This document shows positions 11,617-29,914 of a stretch of 49,439 bases of DNA, piece after piece. The translations under genes were made by a program, and so were the position numbers. Positions within the stretch are counted from its first letter, which is position 1. The number at the start of each line of letters is the position of its first letter. The stretch comes from Planctomycetota bacterium (GTDB lineage Bacteria > Planctomycetota > UBA1135 > GCA-002686595): positions 22,163 through 71,601 of the forward strand of contig NYXZ01000093.1 in assembly GCA_002686595.1 (NCBI GenBank), written 5' to 3'. The notes beneath the pieces are model-generated. The model ran no database searches. It was not told where the DNA came from and worked only from the letters and a program-made list of their open reading frames with translations.

Positions 11617-14600
11617 GTGCTGCCCGTCCTCCTGACCCTCGCCTGCCTCTCCGCCCAAGGCGGCGGCATCGCCATCGACCCCCTGGCTAACGGTCTCAGT
11701 GATTGGGAAGGGGACAAGCGCTATTGGAGCCTGGAGGAAGGCGTGCTCACCGGGCGCAGCACAGCTGAACTGCCCTGCGACGAAACGACGTACCTGACCT
11801 GGCTCGGAGGCGATGTGACCGACTTCGTCCTGCGGCTCGAGTTCAAGATCGAAAGCGGCAACTCCGGGATTCAATTCCGCAGCGAACGTGGACCGGGCTT
11901 CGAACTACTCGGCTACCAGGCCGACCTTGAGGCCGGTGAAACCTGGACCGGGGGGCTCTACGAAGCCGGTGGCCGGGCCGTTCTCGGGCAACGCGGTCTG
12001 CGCGTTATTTTGGACCCCGACGGAAGGCGGCGCTTCGAACCTCTGACACCAGAAGCCGTGGAGGTGGGTCGGGATGTAGCTGGCGAATGGCACGAGTACA
12101 CCGTGCGAGCGGTGGGACAACGCATCGAACTCACGATCGATGGAGTTCTGACCTGTGATGTCCTGGACAACGATTTGGCGCACTCGAGCCGGCACGGCCT
12201 AATCGGGCTACAGCTCCACCAGGGCCCACCCATGAGCGTTTCCTTCCGCAACATCCGCATCCTGCGGCTCGACCCCGCGAGGCGGCGGGAAAAGATAGAA
12301 AGCGGTGAGTTCAACCTGCCTCATTGGATCTGGCTGCCCGGCGAGCCAGCCGCGGACCAGGAAATGTGGACGCGTCAGAGCATTGACCTGGGCGACTTGG
12401 AGGATGGCAGTCGCGCTACGCTGAGTGGCAGCTGCGACAATGCGGCCAAGGTGTTCATAAACGGCAATGAAGTGATCGATTGGGAAGAGTGGTGGACGCC
12501 CTTTCGTCTGGATGTAACTGAACACCTGCTGCCAGGCGTCAATCAACTGGAAGCCTGGGGTTGGAATGAGAGCGGCCCCGCTGGTCTCTGGCTCGAACTC
12601 TCGTTGCAGCGGGCGGAGGACAGCAATGAGAAGTGGTTCACCACCGAAACCTGGCCGGTGACCGACCGCCGGCCACCTGACTGGCCGGATTCAATGCCAG
12701 TAAAGGCAGATGATGGTTCGCAACGGTGGCGCATTGCCGAGGACCATGGCGCGCTCGGCGCCGATCCTTGGGGATCGCAACTGGGCTTTCTCGACGAGCG
12801 CCTGCCGGATGTGCTCCCAGCTGCTGATCTCCTGCTACCGGATGGATTCGCCGCCGAGCGCATCTACTCCGTGCCCCTGCGCCGCCAGGGCTCCTGGGTG
12901 GCCTTGGCCATGGATGGAGCCGGTCGCATCTACGCCTCCTCACAACACCGGGACATGTACCGCCTGACCGTGCCCCCCCTCGGCGAGAGCGGCCCGGTCC
13001 ACGCCACGAAACTAGAAGTCGACATCGGCCCGGCCCAAGGATTGTGCTGGGCTTTCAATTCGCTGTACGTGGTTGTCGCCGAAGGCAAGCAGACGGGCCT
13101 GTGGCGCCTGCGCGACCTCGACGGAAACGACACGCTGGAAGATGCCCAGCTGCTAAAGGCCTTTGATGGAGAAGGCGAACACGGCCCCCATGCCGTTGTT
13201 CCCGGGCCGGACGGAACATCCCTGTATGTCATCGCCGGGAATCATGTGGCCCTGCCCGAGAATCTCGCACGCCGGCGCCCAGCACCCCTGTGGGGCGAGG
13301 ACCAACTGCTCACCAGGCGCGCCGACCCCAATGGCCACGCCGTCGGCATCCGCGCTCCCGGCGGTTGGCTATGCCGAACTGACGAAGATGGAAAAGACTG
13401 GGAGTTGATCGCCATCGGCTTGCGCAACTCATACGACCTGGCCTTCAACGCCGAGGGGGAAGCCTTCACTTTTGACTCTGATATGGAGTGGGACATCGGG
13501 TTGCCCTGGTACCGCGCCCCGCGCATCCTGCACCTGGTCTCGGGGGCCGAGTTCGGCTGGCGCCACGGCTCGGGTAAATGGCCCACTCATTATCCGGACA
13601 GCCTGCCGGGCATCGCCGACTCGGGCCTGGCTTCCCCCACCGGCGTCACCTTCGGCTACAACACATCGTTTCCCGAGCCCTATCGTTCTTCGCTCTTGGT
13701 GGCCGATTGGGCCTACGGCACGCTCCAGGCAGTAACGCTCACACCTCAGGGCTCAACCTACACCGGCGACTTCATGCCCTTTGCCTCGGGCCGCCCATTC
13801 CCCGTGGCAGACATGACCGCGGGCCCCGATGGCGCCCTCTATGTAGTTACCGGAGGGCGCCACACCCATTCGGCCATCTATCGTATCTGGCACGAGGCCG
13901 GTCGCGCGGGCCAGGAAACGCAACCCGTTGAGGACGACGCGGCCAGCAAGTTGCGCCACTTGCGGCGCGCCCTCGAAGCTCGCCACCGGCAAGGAGCAAC
14001 GCCAGTTCCCTGGGAATACCTCTCCCATCCGGATCGCTTCATCGCCCATGCCGCGCGCGTTGCCCTTGAACACTGTCAAGTGCTGGAGTGGGCCGACCGC
14101 GCCCTTTTGGAAGACGACTTGGCCACGGCCCTGCCCGCCCTCTTGGCCCTCACGCGAGCAGCCGCTGACAGCCACGGCGAGCGCATCCACCAGAGGATTT
14201 CGGAGCTCCCCTGGGATAGCCTGGAGCAATTAGAGCTCTTGCCCTGGCTGCGCCTGCTCGCCCTAGCTGACATCCGTGCCGGTTCTCCACCAGCGAAACT
14301 GCACGCCACTCGACTGGCGCGCCTGGAGGCTCTCTTCCCCACTGCACATCCCCTGGTCAATCGCGAGCTGGCCAATCTACTCGCCCGGTACGGAAGCAAC
14401 GCACTCGCTCGCCAAGCGGTTGACCTGCTGACTTCTTCGCCGAGTAGCGAGGACCAGATACACATGGCCCTGGTTCTGTCCCAGGTGAAAACAGGTTGGA
14501 CCCTGCCCCTGCGCCGTCGCTACTTTCAGTGGCTCGACAAACAGGCGGAAGCAATGACGGGTGGCGCCAGCCTGGAACTCTACCTCGACGGAATACGCGA

Positions 14601-15183
14601 GGACGCGCACGCCGCGCTTCCTCCGGAACTCGCCCAGCATCCAGATCTCCTGCTATCCGCCCCCAGCTCGACGGCAGAAGCAAGCCGCCATTCCGCGCCC
14701 TTTGTACAGCATTGGACAAAAGCGGAGCTCGCTCCCCACCTCGTGCAACTGAAGGCACCCCGCGACCTGGCGGCTGGCAAGTTGGCCTTCGAGCTGGCTA
14801 CCTGTCTCGAATGTCACCGCTTTGAGGGCCGTGGGGGCGCCACAGGCCCGGACCTGACTGGCGCCGGAGCGCGCTTCGCGCCCCGGGATCTACTCAACGC
14901 CATCCTGGCGCCCTCGGACGAGGTGTCTGATCAATACCGGGAGACCATGGTGCGCACAACTGACGGGGCCATTCTGATCGGACGCGTAGAGGCAGAAGAC
15001 GAGTTCGGTCTGATCCTGCGTCCTTCCGCGCCCAACTCCGAGCCAATCCTGATCGAAGCAGATGAGTTGGATCTACGCACACCCAGCCGCATCTCCCGCA
15101 TGCCAACGGAGCTGCTCGACTGCCTGACCCTGGAACAGGTGCTCGACTTGCTGGCCTATGTCCTCTCCGGGACCACGGACTAG
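11617..15183 (+). CDS. Secreted DUF1080 / propeller / cytochrome c mosaic protein
   Basis: An 1188-residue protein read from GTG at 11617; the first 15 residues form a short signal peptide (LPVLLTLACLSAQ). Residues 20-205 are a DUF1080 (3-keto-disaccharide hydrolase-like, LamG-fold) domain with NSGIQFRSE and GGLYEAGG. Residues 225-330 look like a galactose-binding beta-sandwich (AKVFINGNEVIDWEEW). Residues 410-760 are a PVC-type glucose-dehydrogenase-like propeller with GLRNSYDLAFN and GAEFGWRHGSGKWP. HEAT-like helices lie at about 770-1020. A planctomycete-type heme domain with CLECH is near residue 1063, with a possible Met ligand in RMPTELL. Such proteins are thought to couple periplasmic sugar oxidation or binding to electron transfer; this is inference. 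Its TAG stop is part of the CTAG tip of the palindromic repeat at 15180-15293. Confidence 0.87.
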   Translation: MLPVLLTLACLSAQGGGIAIDPLANGLSDWEGDKRYWSLEEGVLTGRSTAELPCDETTYLTWLGGDVTDFVLRLEFKIESGNSGIQFRSERGPGFELLGYQADLEAGETWTGGLYEAGGRAVLGQRGLRVILDPDGRRRFEPLTPEAVEVGRDVAGEWHEYTVRAVGQRIELTIDGVLTCDVLDNDLAHSSRHGLIGLQLHQGPPMSVSFRNIRILRLDPARRREKIESGEFNLPHWIWLPGEPAADQEMWTRQSIDLGDLEDGSRATLSGSCDNAAKVFINGNEVIDWEEWWTPFRLDVTEHLLPGVNQLEAWGWNESGPAGLWLELSLQRAEDSNEKWFTTETWPVTDRRPPDWPDSMPVKADDGSQRWRIAEDHGALGADPWGSQLGFLDERLPDVLPAADLLLPDGFAAERIYSVPLRRQGSWVALAMDGAGRIYASSQHRDMYRLTVPPLGESGPVHATKLEVDIGPAQGLCWAFNSLYVVVAEGKQTGLWRLRDLDGNDTLEDAQLLKAFDGEGEHGPHAVVPGPDGTSLYVIAGNHVALPENLARRRPAPLWGEDQLLTRRADPNGHAVGIRAPGGWLCRTDEDGKDWELIAIGLRNSYDLAFNAEGEAFTFDSDMEWDIGLPWYRAPRILHLVSGAEFGWRHGSGKWPTHYPDSLPGIADSGLASPTGVTFGYNTSFPEPYRSSLLVADWAYGTLQAVTLTPQGSTYTGDFMPFASGRPFPVADMTAGPDGALYVVTGGRHTHSAIYRIWHEAGRAGQETQPVEDDAASKLRHLRRALEARHRQGATPVPWEYLSHPDRFIAHAARVALEHCQVLEWADRALLEDDLATALPALLALTRAAADSHGERIHQRISELPWDSLEQLELLPWLRLLALADIRAGSPPAKLHATRLARLEALFPTAHPLVNRELANLLARYGSNALARQAVDLLTSSPSSEDQIHMALVLSQVKTGWTLPLRRRYFQWLDKQAEAMTGGASLELYLDGIREDAHAALPPELAQHPDLLLSAPSSTAEASRHSAPFVQHWTKAELAPHLVQLKAPRDLAAGKLAFELATCLECHRFEGRGGATGPDLTGAGARFAPRDLLNAILAPSDEVSDQYRETMVRTTDGAILIGRVEAEDEFGLILRPSAPNSEPILIEADELDLRTPSRISRMPTELLDCLTLEQVLDLLAYVLSGTTD

Positions 15184-17301: not shown

Positions 17302-18108
17302 GTGCTGGGCAGCGCGCGCCCACTGACCTTGGATCCGCGCTCACGACGGCTGCTGCTGGCCATGCTGGTCGGCGCTTTCTGCCTCCAGACCTGGCTGATC
17401 TACTCGGATCCAATCGGACGCGAGCACCCGCCCCTGTCCGCCGCCGCCACCCGGGGCCGCGCCCTCTACCATTCCCACAACTGCCAGAGCTGCCACCAGA
17501 TTTTCGGCTTTGGCGGCTTCTTGGGGCCGGACCTGACTAACTTGGCGCGCCGGCGCGGGGACACCGAGAGCCTGGCCCGCGACCTGACACAAATCCTGAC
17601 CACCGGCTCGGAGCGCATGCCGGCCTTCAAACTCAGCGACGGCGAACGCTCAGACCTCGCGAGCTTCTTCACGGAACTAGACCGACTGGGCGTGGGCCAG
17701 GTGCGCATCACGGAAACACCTCCGGCCAAGGATATCTTCAAGACCCTGATCGCCGAATACGCACAACACGACCCCCTGACCCCCGAGGCCGCAGAGGGAC
17801 TGTGGCTCGTCGAGCAAGCCGGCTGTATCAACTGCCACCTGCCCAACGGTCGCAGTACCTTCGCCGCCACGGATCTCACCAAGTTGCACTCCCAGTTGAG
17901 CGAAGACCAGCTGCGCAGCGTGCTGACCGAGGGCATTCCAGAGAAGGGCATGCCCGCCATGAAACTGCAGCCCACCCAATTCGAATCGCTGCTGGCCTTC
18001 TTGGCCTGGCTGGACCGACAGGGCCCCGACCTGCGCCAGGGCTTCCACGACGCTGAGAACGCCTCCGGCGGCTCTCTGCTGGACCTCCCCTGGTTCGAGT
18101 ACCGTTGA
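17302..18108 (+). CDS. Membrane-anchored diheme cytochrome c, NorC-like partner of the downstream oxidase
   Basis: A 268-residue protein read from GTG at 17302; no in-frame ATG precedes the membrane anchor. One N-terminal transmembrane helix (residues 13-32, LLLAMLVGAFCLQTWLIY) anchors it with two periplasmic cytochrome c domains. The first has CQSCH near residue 60 followed by FGFGGFLGPDLTN, the loop pattern of NorC-type cytochromes. The second has CINCH near residue 174. Possible axial Met residues are in ERMPAFKL and KGMPAMKL. Classical NorC carries one heme, so the second domain is an extension. It ends 2 bp before the ATG of the NorB-like gene, so the two form a transcription unit. It likely feeds electrons to that catalytic subunit. 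Confidence 0.85.
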   Translation: MLGSARPLTLDPRSRRLLLAMLVGAFCLQTWLIYSDPIGREHPPLSAAATRGRALYHSHNCQSCHQIFGFGGFLGPDLTNLARRRGDTESLARDLTQILTTGSERMPAFKLSDGERSDLASFFTELDRLGVGQVRITETPPAKDIFKTLIAEYAQHDPLTPEAAEGLWLVEQAGCINCHLPNGRSTFAATDLTKLHSQLSEDQLRSVLTEGIPEKGMPAMKLQPTQFESLLAFLAWLDRQGPDLRQGFHDAENASGGSLLDLPWFEYR

Positions 18109-18110
18109 CC

Positions 18111-19541
18111 ATGCAGCCCCTGCCCAAAAACGGCTCACTTGTCCGCGCCGAGCGCATGCAGTTGACGCTCATGGCCAGCGCCCTGGCCTGCCTGGCCCTC
18201 AGCCTGCTCTTCGGTTTCCTAGCTGCTCTCTACTACATCCCCGGCCTCTCGGCCCGGGCTGTCAAGGCCGGCATCAGCCTGGTTCAACTGCGCCCCCTGC
18301 ACACAACCTTCGCCTCCGGCTGGCTCTTCCTCGGCGCCGTCACCGCTGTTCACAAATACCTGGCCGATGAGTTCGGCACGCCCACCAACGGCGAGGCCCG
18401 GCGCTTCCGCCTCCAGATGATCCTCTGGGGCTTGGCGGGCCTGGCCGCCATCATAACCCTGCCCCTCGGCATCACATCAGGGCGGGAATACGTCGGCTTC
18501 CACCCGAGCATCTCGGCCCTGATCGCCGCCGGCTGGCTGCTCTTCGCCTGGACCTTCTTCGCCCGCGTCGGCCCCGGTTTCTTCCGCCGTCCGGTTTATG
18601 TCTACATGTGGGCCGCGGGCATCCTGTACTTCCTGTACACCTTCGCCGAGGCCCATGCTTGGCTGCTGGATGGCATTTGGAAACGCCCCGTCGCCGACCT
18701 GCAGATTCAATGGAAGTCCTGCGGAGCCCTGGTGGCCGCCTTCAACCAGATGGTCTACGGCGGCCTGACCTATTTCGGCGCGAAGCACTCCGGCGATGAA
18801 CGCATTGGCCATTCACGCACGGCCTTTGCCCTCTTCGGCGTGGGCCTGCTCAACTCCCTCACCAACTACGCTCACCACACCTACCACCTGCCCCAGTCCC
18901 ACTCCATCAAGTGGATCGCCTTCGCGGTCAGCATGCTGGAGATCATTCTCCTGTTACGCTTGCTGCAGGAAGTCAGCAGCGCCCTGCGCAATCGCCGTCG
19001 CCCGCTCTGGGAACGGGTCAACATCACCGAGCGCTTGACCGCTCTGGCAAAGCACTGGAACGTCTTCCTGCTGACCCTGGCCCTGGCCATCTCCGTCCCG
19101 CCCTGGAATGCATTGATCCACGGCACCCATGTGGTCATGGCCCACGCCATGGGTTCGGAGCTGGCCATCGACACCTACATCCTGCTGGGGCTCTTTGCCT
19201 GGGTGCTGGTCACAATCTTCCCCAAGCGTGAAACACAACTGCGCATCATCCACTCGCCGCGCGTGGCGCGCGCCATCCTGGGCCTCAATCTGTCATTGAT
19301 CGGGCTCGTGACCACGCTCCTAATCAGCGGCCTGACCACCGGCGTCCAGCGTGCCCTCGGCCAACCCATGCCCCACTGGCTGGATTACTTCCCCTACGGC
19401 CTCCTGCTCTTCGGCAGCGGCGTGGCGCTTTTCCTGATGGTCATCCTCCTCACCTGGCTGCCACTCTTCCGGCGGCCCGCGGCACACAAGAGCTGGGACC
19501 TGGGCACGGATCCACTGCCCACGCCGCCGCCCCCGCACTAA
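18111..19541 (+). CDS. NorB-like heme-copper oxidase superfamily catalytic subunit (putative NO reductase)
   Basis: A 476-residue, about 12-helix membrane protein of the heme-copper oxidase superfamily, closest to nitric oxide reductase large subunits. I chose the ATG at 18111; TTG at 18105 overlaps the upstream stop. Expected ligands are His64 (RPLHTTFASG, low-spin heme), His182 (AEAHAWLLDGIW), the His255/His256 pair (NYAHHTYHL) for the active-site metal, and His345 in HGTHVVMAHAMG for the high-spin heme. Two points are atypical: the residue two after His345 is Met, where usual family members have the second low-spin-heme His, and the acidic residue after the first metal His is Asp187 at +5 rather than Glu at +4. 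It may reduce NO or, less likely, O2. It is paired with the diheme cytochrome upstream. Confidence 0.82.
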   Translation: MQPLPKNGSLVRAERMQLTLMASALACLALSLLFGFLAALYYIPGLSARAVKAGISLVQLRPLHTTFASGWLFLGAVTAVHKYLADEFGTPTNGEARRFRLQMILWGLAGLAAIITLPLGITSGREYVGFHPSISALIAAGWLLFAWTFFARVGPGFFRRPVYVYMWAAGILYFLYTFAEAHAWLLDGIWKRPVADLQIQWKSCGALVAAFNQMVYGGLTYFGAKHSGDERIGHSRTAFALFGVGLLNSLTNYAHHTYHLPQSHSIKWIAFAVSMLEIILLLRLLQEVSSALRNRRRPLWERVNITERLTALAKHWNVFLLTLALAISVPPWNALIHGTHVVMAHAMGSELAIDTYILLGLFAWVLVTIFPKRETQLRIIHSPRVARAILGLNLSLIGLVTTLLISGLTTGVQRALGQPMPHWLDYFPYGLLLFGSGVALFLMVILLTWLPLFRRPAAHKSWDLGTDPLPTPPPPH

Positions 19542-22728: not shown

Positions 22729-22897
22729 TTTCGCGCCCTCCCTGACCCTCAGTAAACGCGATCCATCCCCCCTGGAACAAAAAACCGGGATAGTCTGTCA
22801 GTAGGTCATCAGAGGTCCGCGTCCGGTTTGATGCGCCCCCGCCGTGGGGGGCGAGCGAGGGCAACCTCCAGCATCCCCTCAGTTCCCAACCCCCACC

Positions 22898-25800
22898 ATG
22901 TCCAAGCGCACATCCATCCGTCCCTTGAACGCGACCCTCGGCCTCCTGGCGCTCTCCTTCATCGCCCTGCCCCTGGTGCTGGCGGAAGGCCCGGGTCAGG
23001 ACGCGCGCTCCCTCGGGATTGAGCAAGCCGCGGCCCAAGCCAGCCCCGGCGGCCACGGACAAGCTCTGCCCAACCCGCACCGCGGCGCGGCAGCCGAGCC
23101 GACCATCACCCGCACCGCGGACGGCAGCCTGCTCGTGGAAGGCGAGACCGGCAACCAAGTAATCAAGAGCTGCGTGCGGCCCACGGAAGACCCCGGAGCC
23201 CATCCGGAGTTCGGTCCCAACTTCGATTCTACTCGAGCTACCTCAGGCGTGGTCGCCGCCCGCGGCTCCGCCGCCACACCCATCGGCGGCACATCCTCAT
23301 CCGGTGGCGGCACCCGCGGCCCCGGCGCGCCCATGCCCGGCGGCACCGGCATCGGCAAGGGTCCCGCCAATGTCTACCCGGGTTGTCTCTTCTGCCACTG
23401 GGAGATTGAAAACCCCACGGAGAACATGATGGGCGGCTTTGAGCTCGACTGCACGTTCTGTCACGGGGGAGATCCAATGGCGACATCCAAGGCCGCGGCC
23501 CATGTCCATTCAGATGGATCTGTTGTCTACGACAAGCGCGTCCCCCCCCTGGGCGCTGATTTGGCCTATCAGAAGTTCATCAACCCCTCCAACCTGCGCA
23601 CGGTGGACACTACCTGCGGCCTTTGCCATCCGACCAAGGCCTCGGATGTGAAGAAGAGCCTGATGGCCACCAACGCCGGCCACCTGACCGGCGGCTTCTA
23701 CCAGAACAACGTGGTCAACTCGAAGCATCCCATCTACGGCAACTTCGCCATCGCCGACACCGATGGTTATGTGCCTTCCGGGGACGGCGCCCTCTACAGC
23801 ATCCAGGACATGAAGGTCTTCGACCCCACCGAGGATCCCTCCCTGTTCTCAACCCATTACACAGCCGTCCCCAGCCAGTCCTGCGCCCGATGCCACCTGT
23901 GGTCGCGGGGCAAGGGCTATCGCGGCGCCGCGGGGCAAGATGGCGTTTATCGCGCCGATGGTTGCGTTGCCTGCCACATGCCCTATGCCAACGACGGGCT
24001 CTCCCTCTCGGCCGATAAAATGATCGACCATACGGAGACCGGCCACCCGAAATACCACTCGGTTACCAAGCAGGTGCCGACGGAGCAGTGCCTGCACTGT
24101 CATCACCGGGGCGCTCGCATCGGCCTGACCTTCACTGGTCGCGCTCAGATGCCGCCGCGCATGCCATCGGGCCCCGGTGTCCCGGGCACAACCGACGAGA
24201 AGTTCAACACCAACTACCACTATACGGTTGCCGATACGAACCCGCCTGATATCCATCACGAGCTGGGCATGCACTGCATCGACTGCCACACAGCCGAGGG
24301 CATCATGGGCGACGGCAATCTGTGGGGCCACATGGACCAGGCCACCAAGATCGAATGCCGTGCCTGCCATGGCACCCACAACTCCTTGCCGACCCTGACG
24401 GACAACGACGGCGGCATCTTGGAAAATGTGGAGCAGGTCATTGGCCAAGGTTTCGTATTGACCTCAAAGGTCACGGGCGTCGAACACCAGATGCCGACGG
24501 TCATGTCCGTCATCGCGAGCAACCCCCTGGCTCAAGCGGCCATGACAGATGACCACCTCAAGGACAATGGAGGCCTTGAGTGCTATGCCTGCCACACCTC
24601 TTGGATTCCCAACTGCTTCGGTTGCCACTTCGAACGCGATGAGCAGGATGTGGGCCTGAACCTGATGACCAATCAGTACGAGGTCGGCAAGGTCACCTCG
24701 AACAACAAAATCTTCGAGGCCCTGCGCCACTTCAGCCTGGGCCCCAACAGCGAAGGTCGCATCGCGCCCTATATCGTTTCATGCATGCCCATCGCAGATG
24801 TCACGGCTCCCGATGGCAGCAAAATCATGGACTTCAAGATGCCCGTGACCTCAAACGGTCTCTCGGGCCTGGCCCACAACCCGGTTCAGCCCCACTCGGT
24901 GCGCGGCGCCGGCGAGGTGCGCACCTGTGCCGAATGTCACCGCTCCCCCGCGTCCCTGGGCCTGGGCTCCGGCAACTTCGCCGTCGCCCGGCGCAACATC
25001 TTCACCGCCGGTTCGTCCGGGCTGACGGCTCACGACCGCAAGGCGGACCCGACCCAGCCGGGAGTCACCAGCACTCTCTCTGGCGCTGCCCAAGCAGTTG
25101 CCTCCAAGCCCAGTATTGTGGAAGGCTCGGCGGAATACCTATTCGTAGCCTCCGGCACTTCCGGCGTGGCGGTCTACGACAACACCAGCGGCTCCCCAGT
25201 GGGCCCGGTCCACACTATCGGCGGCGTCGATGCCATCGATGTGGCCCGCGTGGCTCGCTACCTATATGTGGTCGATGCGGGTATCGGCATTCAGATCTAC
25301 GACAACTTGGTGCCCACAGCCACCACACACCTAGCCACGGTCGCCCTCCCCAGCGCCGAACGAGTTGTGCCATCCGGCATCCACCTCTTCGTCGCCGCCG
25401 GCACGACTGGCCTGGTGCTAGTCAATGTGGCCGACCACTCGGCCCCCACCATTGAAAACACAATCGGCGCCATGGACGCGGAGGACGTGGTCGTCTACTC
25501 CCACTTCCAGGCCGGCAACGGTTTCGCCGCCCGCGCCTATGTGGCCGACCCGAGTTACGGAGTACATGTGATCGACCTGCTGCCCAACTACTCCACGGCC
25601 GCGCGCGTCGCTGGACTGCCCTTGGTGGGTGCCACTGCGGTCGACACCTACTCGCGTTGGGTAGAGGCCACGGTCACGGAACCAAACCGCGAGCACGACT
25701 ACCTGTACGTGGCCGCCGGCACGGCCGGCTTGGCGGTCTTCGACATCACCGAGCCAGACAACATCACGCCGTCAGCCACGGTCACCGACCTCGGCGGCGA

Positions 25801-26095
25801 TGTGCGCGACATCCAAGTCTCAAGCGCTCTAATCCCCGTGGGAACGGATGACTACGCCTACCTCGCCAATGCCGCCCTCGGCTTGCAGGTAGTCAACATC
25901 AACACACCCACGGCACCTGTCAACCTCGGAGCCGTGCCCGCTAGTCCCCCGGCCTCGCGGTTGCTGACTGAAATCCAGGAACTCGACCGCTTCATGGACG
26001 AGCAGGGCAACGAGCTAAAGGAGAACTCGCACCCCTTCATCACGCCCCATACGCACGCGGACATCGTGCGCCTGCTTTCGGTAACGCTGCCCTAG
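22898..26095 (+). CDS. Secreted 11-heme cytochrome c fused to a LVIVD-type beta-propeller
   Basis: A 1065-residue exported multiheme cytochrome. The frame is open from 22844, but the ATG at 22898 opens a signal peptide (MSKRTSIRPLNATLGLLA, then LSFIALPLVLA). Eleven CxxCH motifs lie between about residues 162 and 680: CLFCH, CTFCH, CGLCH, CARCH, CVACH, CLHCH, CIDCH, CRACH, CYACH, CFGCH and CAECH. Many extra His residues could provide distal ligands. Residues 720-1040 form repeats of the LVIVD type, with blades such as YLFVASGTSGVAVYD, YLYVVDAGIGIQIYD and YLYVAAGTAGLAVFD, predicted to be a propeller. A periplasmic or surface electron-transfer role is likely; partner and substrate are unknown. 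The TAG stop is formed by the CTAG tip of the palindromic repeat that follows. Confidence 0.85.
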   Translation: MSKRTSIRPLNATLGLLALSFIALPLVLAEGPGQDARSLGIEQAAAQASPGGHGQALPNPHRGAAAEPTITRTADGSLLVEGETGNQVIKSCVRPTEDPGAHPEFGPNFDSTRATSGVVAARGSAATPIGGTSSSGGGTRGPGAPMPGGTGIGKGPANVYPGCLFCHWEIENPTENMMGGFELDCTFCHGGDPMATSKAAAHVHSDGSVVYDKRVPPLGADLAYQKFINPSNLRTVDTTCGLCHPTKASDVKKSLMATNAGHLTGGFYQNNVVNSKHPIYGNFAIADTDGYVPSGDGALYSIQDMKVFDPTEDPSLFSTHYTAVPSQSCARCHLWSRGKGYRGAAGQDGVYRADGCVACHMPYANDGLSLSADKMIDHTETGHPKYHSVTKQVPTEQCLHCHHRGARIGLTFTGRAQMPPRMPSGPGVPGTTDEKFNTNYHYTVADTNPPDIHHELGMHCIDCHTAEGIMGDGNLWGHMDQATKIECRACHGTHNSLPTLTDNDGGILENVEQVIGQGFVLTSKVTGVEHQMPTVMSVIASNPLAQAAMTDDHLKDNGGLECYACHTSWIPNCFGCHFERDEQDVGLNLMTNQYEVGKVTSNNKIFEALRHFSLGPNSEGRIAPYIVSCMPIADVTAPDGSKIMDFKMPVTSNGLSGLAHNPVQPHSVRGAGEVRTCAECHRSPASLGLGSGNFAVARRNIFTAGSSGLTAHDRKADPTQPGVTSTLSGAAQAVASKPSIVEGSAEYLFVASGTSGVAVYDNTSGSPVGPVHTIGGVDAIDVARVARYLYVVDAGIGIQIYDNLVPTATTHLATVALPSAERVVPSGIHLFVAAGTTGLVLVNVADHSAPTIENTIGAMDAEDVVVYSHFQAGNGFAARAYVADPSYGVHVIDLLPNYSTAARVAGLPLVGATAVDTYSRWVEATVTEPNREHDYLYVAAGTAGLAVFDITEPDNITPSATVTDLGGDVRDIQVSSALIPVGTDDYAYLANAALGLQVVNINTPTAPVNLGAVPASPPASRLLTEIQELDRFMDEQGNELKENSHPFITPHTHADIVRLLSVTLP

Positions 26096-26333: not shown

Positions 26334-27044
26334 CTAGCGCAGCGGTCCCCGCGCTCGGCCCGCGCGTCGCCGATAGGGACATGACTGGTAACTCATCTCC
26401 AGACTGCAATCACCGTCAGGCTGCACACCGCAATGAAAACACAGGCTGGCAAGGGAACTCTCGTCTTCGAGCAAGCCCCGTGTCAGCTTCCCCAACAGGC
26501 GCGTGAGGTCGTCGACCTCATGGGTGGTGAAAGCTCCGATGGCACGCTGCAAGCGTTCCTCCAGCGCCTGCTCCGCCGCCTTGAATAAGGCCAGACCAGG
26601 ACCGGTGGGGCGCAGGCGCAAGATGCGTCCGTCACCTCCATCCCTGAAACGCTCGATGAATCCACGCTCCCCCATGCGGTCCAACATCAGGCTCGTGGCC
26701 GAGGGTTTGATACCCAGGGCGCGCGCCACCTCGCCCACGCGAATGCCGCGATTGAATACGAGCAACCGCAAGACACGCATCTGCTCCGGAGAGATAGGAC
26801 CGCCATCCACCGCCCCCAATACCGCCCGCTCAAGGTAATGGCGACGCGCCAAGGCCAGAGTGTGCAAGTTCCTGCGCAGACCTGTCAGATCACCCCTGTT
26901 GGAGCTAGATAGCTGGTGCCCCCGGGCCTGAATCCCGGGAGCACCTTCCACGACACCGGCGGGCTTGCCGCAGGGTGAGAGCCTCTCTTGTGGCTCATGG
27001 CTCCGCGCGTCAGCAGCCGGTTTATCTTGCCCAGCGCAACCCAT
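26334..27044 (-). CDS. MarR-family winged-helix regulator with a four-cysteine C-terminal tail
   Basis: A 236-residue protein. Residues 55-190 are a MarR-type winged helix: RVGEVARALGIKPSATSLML holds the helix-turn-helix at about 102-121, and FRDGGDGRILRLRPTGPG is the wing and following strand. The first 50 residues are low-complexity and may not be conserved. The tail at 200-225 has Cys202, Cys205, Cys213 and Cys222 (C-x2-C-x7-C-x8-C), which could bind zinc or an iron-sulfur cluster, or sense redox state; this is inference from spacing. Its ATG overlaps the TGA of the chemoreceptor gene upstream by one base, implying translational coupling. It is convergent with the multiheme cytochrome gene. 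Targets are unknown. Confidence 0.8.
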   Translation of the reverse strand: MGCAGQDKPAADARSHEPQERLSPCGKPAGVVEGAPGIQARGHQLSSSNRGDLTGLRRNLHTLALARRHYLERAVLGAVDGGPISPEQMRVLRLLVFNRGIRVGEVARALGIKPSATSLMLDRMGERGFIERFRDGGDGRILRLRPTGPGLALFKAAEQALEERLQRAIGAFTTHEVDDLTRLLGKLTRGLLEDESSLASLCFHCGVQPDGDCSLEMSYQSCPYRRRAGRARGPLR

Positions 27045-28663
27045 CAGAAGCCCGCCAGGTCTTTTTCGCCGAGGGCCATGATCTCTGCCTGCCCAGCGCC
27101 CTGCTCGACCTGCCCCCGTGGCCTATCCGTCAGCCCCGGCACTTGATCCACTTCCTGCCCCCGCATTCCCGCCCCTGCCCCAGGGGCGCGGCTTGGCGCC
27201 CGCGGCGACATGGGCGGCATCGGCGGCTCCTCGACTGGCACCTGCTGGCTCCCTGGCTTGGAGATCAACCCCTCCAGCTCCTGAACTACACCGCGCAGCG
27301 AGGCTGAGTGGCTGCTCAGTTCCTCCGCCGCTGCAGCCGACTCTTCTGCGTTGGCCGCATTCAACTCTGTGATGTTGCCCATCTCGCGCACGGACGTGTT
27401 GATCTGGTCCACGCCCCGCTCTTGCTCGTTTGTCGCGGTGGCGATCTCACTGATGAGCTTGCGCACGGCGGCCACATTCTCCACGACCTCGTCGAGGGCC
27501 GCTGCCGTCTCCCCCGCCAAGCTCGATCCCTGGCTGGCGTTCTTCATTGATGCCTCGATCAACTTGCCGCTGTCGCGCGCCGCATCACTGGCCCGCTCCG
27601 CCAGGTTGCGCACCTCTTCTGCCACAACGGCGAAGCCCTTGCCGGCCTCGCCCGCCCTGGCGGCCTCCACCGCTGCATTCAAGGCCAGCAAATTGGTCTG
27701 GGAAGCGATCTCGTCAATGGTCTTGACGATGCGCGAAGTCTCCTCGGCGGAGCCCTGGATTTCGTCGATGGCCCCCGTCAGGCGATCCATGGACTGCTTG
27801 CCTTGGCCGATGAGCGCCATGACCTGCCCCATGCCGCGATCCGTGTCGCCGGCCTTTTCCGCATTGGCGGAAGTCATGGCCGATATCTGTTCAATGGATG
27901 CGCCTGACTCCTGCAGGCCAGCGGCCTGTTCGCTCGAACCCTCCGCCAGGGACTGACTAGCACAAGAGACCTGGCCCGCAGCCGCGGCAACCTGATCAGA
28001 GCCCTCCGTGAGATCCGCAATGGCCGCCTGAATGGGGCGCGTGATGGAACGCGCCACCAGGAAGCTGGCGCAGAGCAAGACGGCGGCCGTTGCCAGCCCC
28101 CCGAGCAGCGCGGTCAGTGATGCCCGGGCCACCACCGCACTCAGGGCGGCCGTGCGCTCACTTGTCTGCCCATCGAGCTCCGCCGTCAAGGCCGAGAGCG
28201 CATCCAAGAAAGGCTTGTCATCAATTTTGATGGCCGCATCAATGGCTCCGATGGAAAGCCCCTGGGCGTGCAAACGCCCGGCCTCCGCCAACGCCGCGCC
28301 ATAGGCATCCACCAACTCCTCGATCTTCGCCAATCCGGCCAGCTCCACCTCGCTCAAGGCTCCGGCGCGACGATAGGCACCCAGGCTGGTCCCCATACGT
28401 TCAGCCACTGTTAGATAGCGCTCTGCGTACTTTTCCTGGCCCCGCAGCACGTAGTTCTTGAAGACATGGATACCGCCTCCATAACCCATCTCGCTGCGCA
28501 TGGTCAAAAGATGGCTGCGCTTCTCTTGCACAACCTCCAAGAACTCACGCCATTCGCCCTGGACAGCCCGCAGGCTGGTGGTAGCCACTGCTCCCATGGT
28601 CAGGGTCGCCAATACGGCGAGACCAGAGAGTCCGGCGATTTTCTTGCCCAATGTTACTTTCAT
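27044..28663 (-). CDS. Methyl-accepting chemotaxis protein
   Basis: A 539-residue transmembrane chemoreceptor. TM1 is at about residues 10-30, followed by a periplasmic helical sensor domain of about 160 residues. TM2 is at about 188-208 ([19 protein letters not shown]), then a short HAMP-like region and a cytoplasmic signalling coiled coil. The CheA/CheW-binding hairpin tip is intact: [20 protein letters not shown], then [18 protein letters not shown]. After residue 470 a Pro/Gly/Gln-rich linker leads to a C-terminal [13 protein letters not shown] similar end occurs in the truncated chemoreceptor at 28711-29241, suggesting a docking peptide. The ligand is unknown. The gene is coupled to the MarR gene downstream; no cheA or cheW is in the window. 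Confidence 0.9.
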
Positions 28664-28710
28664 TACTTAGTCCTTGTTCAGTTGCCCACTGTTATCGTTG
28701 TTCCGCGCCC

Positions 28711-29241
28711 TCAGAACGACGCAAGTTCACGTTCGTCCAAGGGAATAATGCGCTCCGCCGAAGTCACGCCCCCGGCCTTGTCTCGCCTGCTTGAACGCCC
28801 AGCCAGACTAGGCGCCAAGTCAACATCATGTGCGGCTTGTTCCACCTGACCCTGTTTTGGTCCCCGTCCGCCACCACGAGTTCCCCCGGAGTGCGTCTGT
28901 GCGCCATGGCTGCGCCCTGAAATCAGCTCCTCGAGCTCCGTAACAACCGCCCGCAGCGAGAGTGAGTGGCTGCTCAGTTCCTCGGCGGCCGAGGCCGACT
29001 CCTCGGCATTGGCCGCGTTTTCCTCGGTCACGCCGCCCATCTCGCGCACCGCCGTATCAATCTGCACGATGCCTCGCTCCTGTTCTTTTGTGGCGCTTGC
29101 GATGTCATTGACGCGCTCGCGCACTTCTCCAGCCTTCTGCACGACCGCATCCATGGCATCGGTGGTCTCCTCGGCCAACTGGGCTCCGAGGTCGGCACTT
29201 TTCAACGACCCTCCAAACATTGCGGCAAAAGATCGCATCAA
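28711..29241 (-). pseudogene. 5'-truncated methyl-accepting chemotaxis protein
   Basis: The 176-codon frame holds only the C-terminal part of a chemoreceptor signalling domain. Homology to the neighbouring chemoreceptor starts at SLKSADLGAQLAEETTDAM (about 29217) and runs through KEQERGI and [19 protein letters not shown] to a linker ending IIPLDERELASF. The sensor, membrane helices, HAMP region and hairpin tip are absent. The bases just upstream belong to cheR in another reading frame, so the two genes appear joined by a deletion. If translated from the ATG at 29241, the product would be a soluble fragment. A genuine small gene is unlikely. Confidence 0.75.
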
Positions 29242-29914
29242 AGGGACCGGCCATGGGCCAACTCTCCATCAAGTTGAGGCGCGCGAAGGTCACCAAGGAC
29301 TGCACCGCGGGCGCCACGCACACACTCCCCCCATCCCCGGCAGCGCCGCCAATGCGCCCCACGCTGCTGAAATAGCGGCGCTTGAACTCCGCCGGTACAT
29401 CGTCCAGGCGCGCCAGCGGATAAACACCCGCCTGGGCCGTGGCCAATGCCTCAGTCGATAAATCCGTGGCGAGGATGCGCACATTCCATTGGTCAAGATC
29501 GGACAGGCCTTCCCGCAGGTGAATGCCAATGGAATAGGGCTCCTCGCCGGTGGAGCAGGCCGCACTCCAGATGCGCAGGCGACCCTTGGCGCACGCCTTG
29601 ACCTCAGCTAGGAACTCCTCACGCAGATAGGTGAAATGACGCGGTTGGCGGAAGAAGCTGGTGACATTTGTAGTGATGGCGTCGAGCAACAAGGTCAACT
29701 CTGCGCCATCCCCCTCACCATTCAACACATCCAAGTATTCGGCGAAGGACCCGAGCTCCAACGCGCGCAACCTGCGGGCCAGACGCGCCTGCACCAGCGT
29801 CTCCTTGCCCGGCTTGAGATCAATCCCCGCCCGCTCCTTTATCAGTCGTCCCAGGGAAGCAAATTCACTCCCCTTGAGCTCCACTCTAGCTTGGTTCCAG
29901 TTTGGCATGGGCAC
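29105..29914 (-). pseudogene. cheR: 3'-truncated CheR chemotaxis methyltransferase
   Basis: CheR methylates chemoreceptor glutamates using S-adenosylmethionine. Residues 1-232 are a good CheR: the N-terminal helical domain (LGRLIKERAGIDLKPGKE), TTNVTSFFRQPRHF, and the SAM-binding IWSAACSTGEEPYSIGI. The match stops just after FDAIFCRNV at about 29220. Intact enzymes continue for some 45-60 residues to complete the SAM fold (an I-Y-F strand and the L-x-P-G-G-x-L segment), but here the frame runs on to 29105 through chemoreceptor DNA read out of frame. The protein is probably non-functional. An assembly error is an alternative to a real deletion. Confidence 0.75.

Follow-up and report, generated by a model that had tools for sequence, protein, structure and literature searches.

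Here, we analyze a norC-like/norB-like gene pair in a 49,439-nucleotide stretch of Planctomycetota DNA (hereafter the window; assembly GCA_002686595.1, contig NYXZ01000093.1, positions 22,163 to 71,601 of the forward strand), for which an original prediction, made from the letters alone, had proposed a divergent nitric oxide (NO) reductase (NOR). The two overlapping open reading frames (ORFs) that it named are present. They represent a real, conserved branch, undescribed in the searches we made, that combines NO-reductase architecture with four of the six histidines of the heme-copper oxidase superfamily. Translation of the two genes is likely coupled, as suggested by the TTGA sequence in which the stop codon of the first overlaps the start codon of the second. 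Residues of the norB-like protein are numbered with the TTG at 18105 as residue 1; alignment A1 and the structural model run one lower. The features of the locus are as follows.

17302 to 18108, + strand: norC-like gene, a 268-residue membrane-anchored diheme cytochrome c (ORF; Pfam Cytochrome_CBB3 and Cytochrom_C)
17350 to 17406, + strand: predicted N-terminal membrane anchor of the NorC-like protein, residues 17-35 (best 19-residue hydropathy stretch)
17482 to 17496, + strand: first heme c site, CQSCH (CXXCH motif at residue 61)
17824 to 17838, + strand: second heme c site, CINCH (CXXCH motif at residue 175)
18105 to 18108, + strand: TTGA overlap of norC stop and norB start (from the sequence; alternative start, ATG at 18111)
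18105 to 19541, + strand: norB-like gene, a 478-residue 12-helix catalytic subunit (ORF, model and structural matches)
18300 to 18302, + strand: His66, helix II, kept low-spin heme ligand (alignment)
18648 to 18662, + strand: EAHAW, end of helix V, with invariant Glu182 and near-invariant His184 (alignment; helix limits from the model)
18708 to 18725, + strand: QWKSCG, start of helix VI, with Gly207 at the expected FeB/CuB His position (alignments)
18873 to 18878, + strand: His257-His258, helix VII, kept FeB/CuB His pair (alignment)
18939 to 18941, + strand: Glu279, helix VIII, NOR-type Glu (cNOR Glu280; alignment)
19119 to 19154, + strand: HGTHVVMAHAMG segment, which contains the Met349 position (sequence)
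19143 to 19151, + strand: His347-Ala-Met349, helix X, kept b3 His and Met replacing the second low-spin-heme His (alignment)

Heme and metal ligands of the family

A scan of an 84,980-species collection with the window protein as query returned 25 related loci, all in metagenome-assembled genomes and including Planctomycetota and Gemmatimonadetes, and profile searches across whole genomes detected it in 27 of 392 Planctomycetota genomes (its own included, and one with a split gene) and in 17 of 150 Gemmatimonadota genomes. Beyond these two phyla the coverage is that of the single-protein scan, so the range of the family should not be read as limited to them. The comparison set comprises 57 members after removal of copies of other loci or of the window, recognized by identical scores, lengths or places (L027-L033, L035, L053 and L084), and of L026, a gene in two fragments that is the same gene as G367/L053. 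Two genomes, G456 and G554, are counted as carriers and have no locus in the alignment.

The 57 members were compared with 14 references (four cNOR, two qNOR, five cbb3, two A-family and one other) at the six conserved His ligands, described as the 'histidine sextet' of the superfamily in PMC3413370. Four of the six are kept in every member and every reference: His66 in helix II, His257 and His258 in helix VII, and His347, the b3 His, in helix X. The other two are lost. At position 207 in helix VI all references carry His and the family carries Gly (56/57) or Arg (1/57), and at position 349 in helix X the second low-spin-heme His of all 14 references is Met in all 57 members. On sequence, the low-spin heme b would hence be held by His66 and Met349, and the bis-His ligation of cNOR would be absent. 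The Met in the HGTHVVMAHAMG segment had been pointed out in the original prediction and holds throughout the family. The same prediction had described the active-site His set as present, which was wrong at Gly207, and the loss of the helix VI FeB/CuB His, the larger of the two changes, had been overlooked. The only His near the acidic residue that it highlighted is His184, which lies where helix V ends (163-182 by the numbering of the model) and was evidently mistaken for an FeB ligand; this residue is His in 54 of the 57 members and N or Q in three.

The register of helix VI is anchored by Trp203, which aligns with a Trp in 13 of the 14 references, four residues ahead of the lost His; the same spacing is given for AxqNOR (Trp482 and His486; PMC10256718). 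In the first multiple alignment the cNOR His stood opposite column 206 and the cbb3 His opposite column 207, with His in neither column among the 43 members then included, and with the A-family rows included all 14 reference His stood in column 207. Two further alignments also pair Gly207 with the reference His. Three of the first 43 members (L013, L014 and L045) have a His elsewhere in helix VI, not at 206 or 207. A canonical cNOR with a sequencing or alignment slip is ruled out, since all 57 members, drawn from many assemblies, carry the changes and the three alignment methods give the same result.

Asp187, counted from the ATG at 18111 (Asp189 from the TTG), had been proposed as the catalytic Glu shifted by one position. 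This assignment fails, given that the residue lies between helices V and VI, not in helix VI, and that its column is unconserved (Pro in 44, Asp in six, Glu in four and other residues in three of 57 members). The conserved acids are instead Glu182 (57/57) and, in helix VIII, Glu279 (57/57), which is Glu in all six c/qNOR references and in none of the eight others. In cNOR, a water is described between FeB and Glu280 (PMC3431322), which puts this Glu near enough to FeB to be considered as a ligand. Within the first 43 members, the column of cNOR Glu211 holds Val/Ile/Thr/Ala or Gly/Ala and that of Glu215 an invariant Asn, with no acid in either (register uncertain by one residue). At the helix VII position that we take to be that of the cbb3 active-site Tyr in the alignment, the window protein has Ser, not Tyr; PMC3084760 assigns the Tyr of cbb3 to helix VII.

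Glu182, Gln202 and Asn214 are each invariant in all 57 members. As judged from the alignment, conservation of the ligand sites reflects purifying selection and not chance, given that the 31 positions invariant in the first 43 members include Met349, Glu279 and the four His ligands that are kept. That Met349, His257, His258, Glu279 and His347 are each found in 57/57 members argues for working sites. Match scores fall from 281 to approximately 48 bits across the 392 Planctomycetota genomes (leaving aside the split-gene fragments at 166 and 93 bits), and among the matches in these genomes we found no intermediate carrying just one of the two ligand changes.

Fold, phylogeny and cytochrome partner

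An AlphaFold2 model of the NorB-like protein, built from a 25-row alignment, has a mean pLDDT (predicted local distance difference test) of 89.1, a pTM (predicted template modelling score) of 0.90 and 12 long helices, and shows the 12-helix subunit I fold of the heme-copper oxidase superfamily. The best structural matches are tied between cNOR (4xyd; Z 38.9, root-mean-square deviation (rmsd) 2.6, 422 aligned residues) and cbb3 (8smr; Z 38.4, rmsd 3.1, 438 aligned), and Foldseek ranks 4xyd first. Profile-profile comparison with six c/qNOR sequences gives a probability of 98.1 and an expect value (E) of 6.6e-14 over 388 columns. The window protein is without a Pfam match, COX1 included, up to E 1, a level at which 20 of 25 aligned members do match COX1. 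Its sole NCBIfam match at E 0.001, to the bifunctional cbb3 subunit I/II model, scores 23 bits where the cut-off is 1080, and 21 of the 25 members match such a model, far under its cut-off.

In the phylogeny the 57 members form one clade (support 100/99), and they stay one group in a reduced quick tree of 51 rows (Shimodaira-Hasegawa-like approximate likelihood ratio test, 97). With two A-family rows as root, the best tree has the family beside cNOR plus qNOR (98/97) and cbb3 outside. The references in the tree are few, with B-family and e/s/g/n/bNOR sequences outside it. A grouping with cNOR alone is rejected (approximately unbiased test, p 0.0006, with only four cNOR rows), one with cbb3 is not (p 0.10), and after alignment the ligands are still not normal. 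Long stem branches (2.83 for that of the family) and a long-branch warning from the program make the place beside the NORs likely, not certain. Of the earlier proposal of a non-canonical or new NOR family, the separate clade, the conserved altered ligands and the rejected cNOR-alone grouping speak in its favor, and the argument from Asp187 drops out.

The partner is diheme, as had been predicted, with CXXCH motifs at residues 61 and 175. Over 86 columns, its first heme domain resembles canonical NorC (hhalign probability 98.9, E 1.7e-17). Both heme sites are invariant in 16 aligned relatives: C61, C64 and H65 with Met106, and C175, C178 and H179 with Met217, the two Met being candidate sixth ligands. 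A cytochrome gene lies directly upstream of the norB-like gene in 56 of the 57 members, and for the remaining one, L051, only 170 upstream bases are present. The partner is diheme in 51 of these 56 and monoheme in five; one monoheme case, L002, is cut by a contig end, and the other four (L025, L047, L049 and L052) branch off close to the family's base. In L025, L047, L049 and L051 a separate diheme cytochrome c follows downstream. Given the NorC match of the first heme domain, the upstream position and the basal monoheme members, the unit looks like a descendant of NorC-NorB, and the diheme partner looks like a later elaboration.

Apart from norC, no neighbor within six genes is common to more than seven of 48 loci, these being the loci in which a crude gene caller detected the norB-like gene, with neighbors clustered by blastp. 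Such isolation, together with the loss of two superfamily His, would fit a protein that is not a terminal reductase at all and whose binuclear site lacks catalysis, acting instead in electron transfer or as a sensor or otherwise re-purposed. We consider this improbable, since His257, His258, Glu279, Glu182, Asn214 and Gln202 are all kept in 57/57 members, unlike in a decaying site, and a dedicated donor subunit is kept in 56/57. Less probable still is a membrane cytochrome c peroxidase or other small-oxidant reductase (for peroxide or hydroxylamine), in which the two His and Glu would serve as distal acid-base groups with no catalytic second metal: the metal site is short of one ligand while nearby His and acids stay invariant, and the cytochrome donor is retained, but the clustered neighborhoods contain no linked gene suggesting such a substrate.

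Proposed function and gene content of carriers

The best explanation for the gene pair is a two-subunit, membrane-bound reductase with a heme-copper fold, nearest in architecture to the NO reductases and on a separate branch with four of six His. Judging by position and conservation, electrons would pass from an external donor to the two His/Met hemes c of the NorC-like subunit and on to a low-spin heme b with His66 and Met349 as its ligands. This heme would in turn reduce a high-spin heme b3 on His347. Opposite b3 there would be a non-heme metal, probably iron, bound by His257, His258 and a carboxylate in place of the three His and Glu211 of cNOR; the simplest choice of carboxylate is the candidate Glu279. 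The substrate would most likely be NO, reduced to N2O: the partner is NorC-type, Glu279 is that of the NORs, the Tyr of oxygen reductases is missing and the best tree places the family next to the NORs, all of which favor NO. The family is not filed as cNOR, because the defining ligands were tested and are absent, and would most likely work like a cytochrome c-dependent NO reductase. In our judgment it is an even call whether the family is a new superfamily branch, present in two phyla, that works with four His, ligates its low-spin heme b through His and Met and binds a catalytic non-heme metal through only two His and a carboxylate. The more specific proposal is tentative and falls somewhat short of that: an enzyme of NO-reductase type that takes electrons from cytochrome c, has His/Met ligation at heme b and two His plus Glu at the metal, and serves NO removal and not denitrification.

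Several results weigh against an NO reductase. Known NORs use both the helix VI His and Glu211, and the family has no ligand in either column. A sequence profile searched against the PDB matches five chains, all of them cbb3 (best E 2.5e-6), and the tree test leaves a grouping with cbb3 standing. NirK was found in 0/27 Planctomycetota and 2/17 Gemmatimonadota carriers (one above the cut-off) and NirS in 1/44 carriers, and in Gemmatimonadota NosZ is rarer in carriers than in the rest (1/17 vs 54/133, Fisher p 0.006, in a test that ignores relatedness and genome incompleteness, as do those below).

The cbb3 matches would fit an O2 reductase or scavenger of C-family (cbb3) descent whose CuB site has two His and which lacks the cross-linked Tyr. 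CcoN of cbb3 is the only PDB match by sequence profile, it ties with cNOR in structure and its clade is not rejected. Set against this are the NOR-type Glu279 in 57/57 members, the NorC-type partner and the Ser at the presumed Tyr position in the window protein. In addition, at least one other COX1-family protein is present in each of the 14 relatives' genomes tested, and the norC-norB pair is therefore not needed as sole oxidase. On balance we find an O2 reductase unlikely and retain the NO-reductase-type enzyme as the preferred reading. One of the other COX1-family proteins in a relative's genome (L077, 1396-2877, - strand) has 494 residues and the segment GHAHMIMFG and branches apart from cNOR, qNOR, cbb3 and the NorB-like family; several of the 14 genomes contain matches of about this size.

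The genome of the window itself, whose assembly is 86% complete, contains one other COX1-family protein and, at the thresholds used, no NirK, NosZ, canonical c/qNOR or NirS. Among Planctomycetota carriers NosZ was found in 1/27 (below cut-off), and neither NirK nor NosZ differs between carriers and the rest (p 1.0 each); for NirK in Gemmatimonadota the difference is not significant (p 0.09, or p 0.69 for cut-off matches). Canonical c/qNOR shows no clear pattern, occurring in 9/27 carriers and 3/20 non-carriers of Planctomycetota and in 0/17 and 2/16, respectively, of Gemmatimonadota. Co-occurrence thus gave no support to a role in denitrification, with NirK, NirS and NosZ rare among carriers. 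If NO is the substrate, this gene content makes removal of ambient NO more likely than respiratory denitrification.

The most divergent member, L052, has a NosZ-like gene below the family cut-off approximately 6 kb away on the opposite strand. It belongs to a group of genes (L116, 8134-11992, + strand) that also includes two SCO1/SenC genes and a cupredoxin-like gene.

Known systems and neighboring genes

With cNOR (NorCB; PDB 3o0r and 4xyd) the family shares the two-gene norC-norB unit, the NorC-type first heme domain, the 12-helix fold, the helix VII His pair, the Glu280 equivalent, the b3 His and the helix II His. It differs in lacking the helix VI His and Glu211, in the Asn of the Glu215 column, in the Met for the second low-spin-heme His, in the diheme partner of the window as opposed to the monoheme NorC, and in the rejected cNOR-alone clade. 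The likeness to cbb3 CcoN lies in the fold and in the PDB sequence-profile matches, whereas the helix VI His is absent, Met stands for the low-spin-heme His, Glu279 occupies a position where cbb3 has Leu, the window protein lacks the Tyr at the presumed helix VII position and the partner is NorC-type. The core fold (Z approximately 30), Glu279 and the His pair are also those of qNOR, but the cytochrome of the window is a separate gene with two CXXCH motifs, in contrast to the fused, heme-free NorC-like domain of qNOR, and the same ligands are lost.

Precedents for a lost FeB His and a lost catalytic Glu are described for the putative NO dismutases (NODs) and qnorB-like proteins (PMC3413370, PMC5723336), whose function is under debate. 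By analogy with the putative NODs (PMC3413370), the NorB-like protein might be an NO dismutase-like enzyme. In those descriptions Asn replaces the His and Gln the Glu, in a qNOR frame that for NODs is without electron entry (PMC3413370), whereas the family has Gly at the helix VI site with no Asn-dominated FeB His column and no Gln in the Glu211 column, and it combines Met at the low-spin heme with a conserved, separate cytochrome donor. We regard a dismutase as very unlikely, and an NO-reductase-type enzyme remains the reading that we prefer. The e/s/g/n/bNORs are likewise non-canonical NORs with a changed active-site residue (PMC8756737, PMC11388526). By their descriptions they would be set apart from the NorB-like family, being related to B-family oxidases (PMC11388526) and having, for s/g/eNOR, a cupredoxin as second subunit (PMC8756737), where the family has a NorC-type cytochrome.

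Literature searches, with Murali et al. 2024 (PNAS) outside their coverage and an earlier description there possible, returned neither a description of the family nor a report of Met replacing the low-spin-heme His in the heme-copper superfamily. If our reading is true, the 'invariant' sextet is not needed for function, and searches demanding it have hidden a class of gas reductases; PMC3084760, for instance, describes removing sequences without the six His. A break in two places of the six-His signature that defines the superfamily (PMC3413370, PMC3084760), with the donor subunit and the residual site kept, would show a chemistry that tolerates other ligands or is re-tuned by them. Given the missing Pfam COX1 match and the weak cbb3 model matches, the family is easily misfiled, and NO and O2 metabolism in genomes of both phyla may be miscounted. 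NorBC has been given for at least 9% of Gemmatimonadota genomes (PMC9426454), a figure that may or may not include the NorB-like family.

On plasmids, the sole match with the window protein as query was a ccoN gene. L049 as query matched 43 plasmid records (E up to 0.01), of which the 20 listed are approximately 25% identical and annotated as NOR or cbb3-type subunit I, or unannotated. Viral contigs searched for the family gave no confirmed member.

Several other genes lie near the pair or its relatives. In one relative (L105, 8368-10260, + strand) a 631-residue cytochrome with eight CXXCH motifs and an MtrC-like match directly follows the norB-like gene. In the window, a multiheme cytochrome of 1083 residues with 11 CXXCH motifs (22844-26095, + strand) lies 3.3 kb downstream of the norB-like gene and has weak Pfam matches, MtrC-like and LVIVD-repeat. 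Upstream, at 11617-15183 (+ strand), a 1188-residue protein joins an N-terminal 3-keto-disaccharide hydrolase domain to a C-terminal cytochrome c match. A single run at 26337-29914 (- strand) encodes a MarR regulator, a chemotaxis receptor (MCP) and a CheR methyltransferase.

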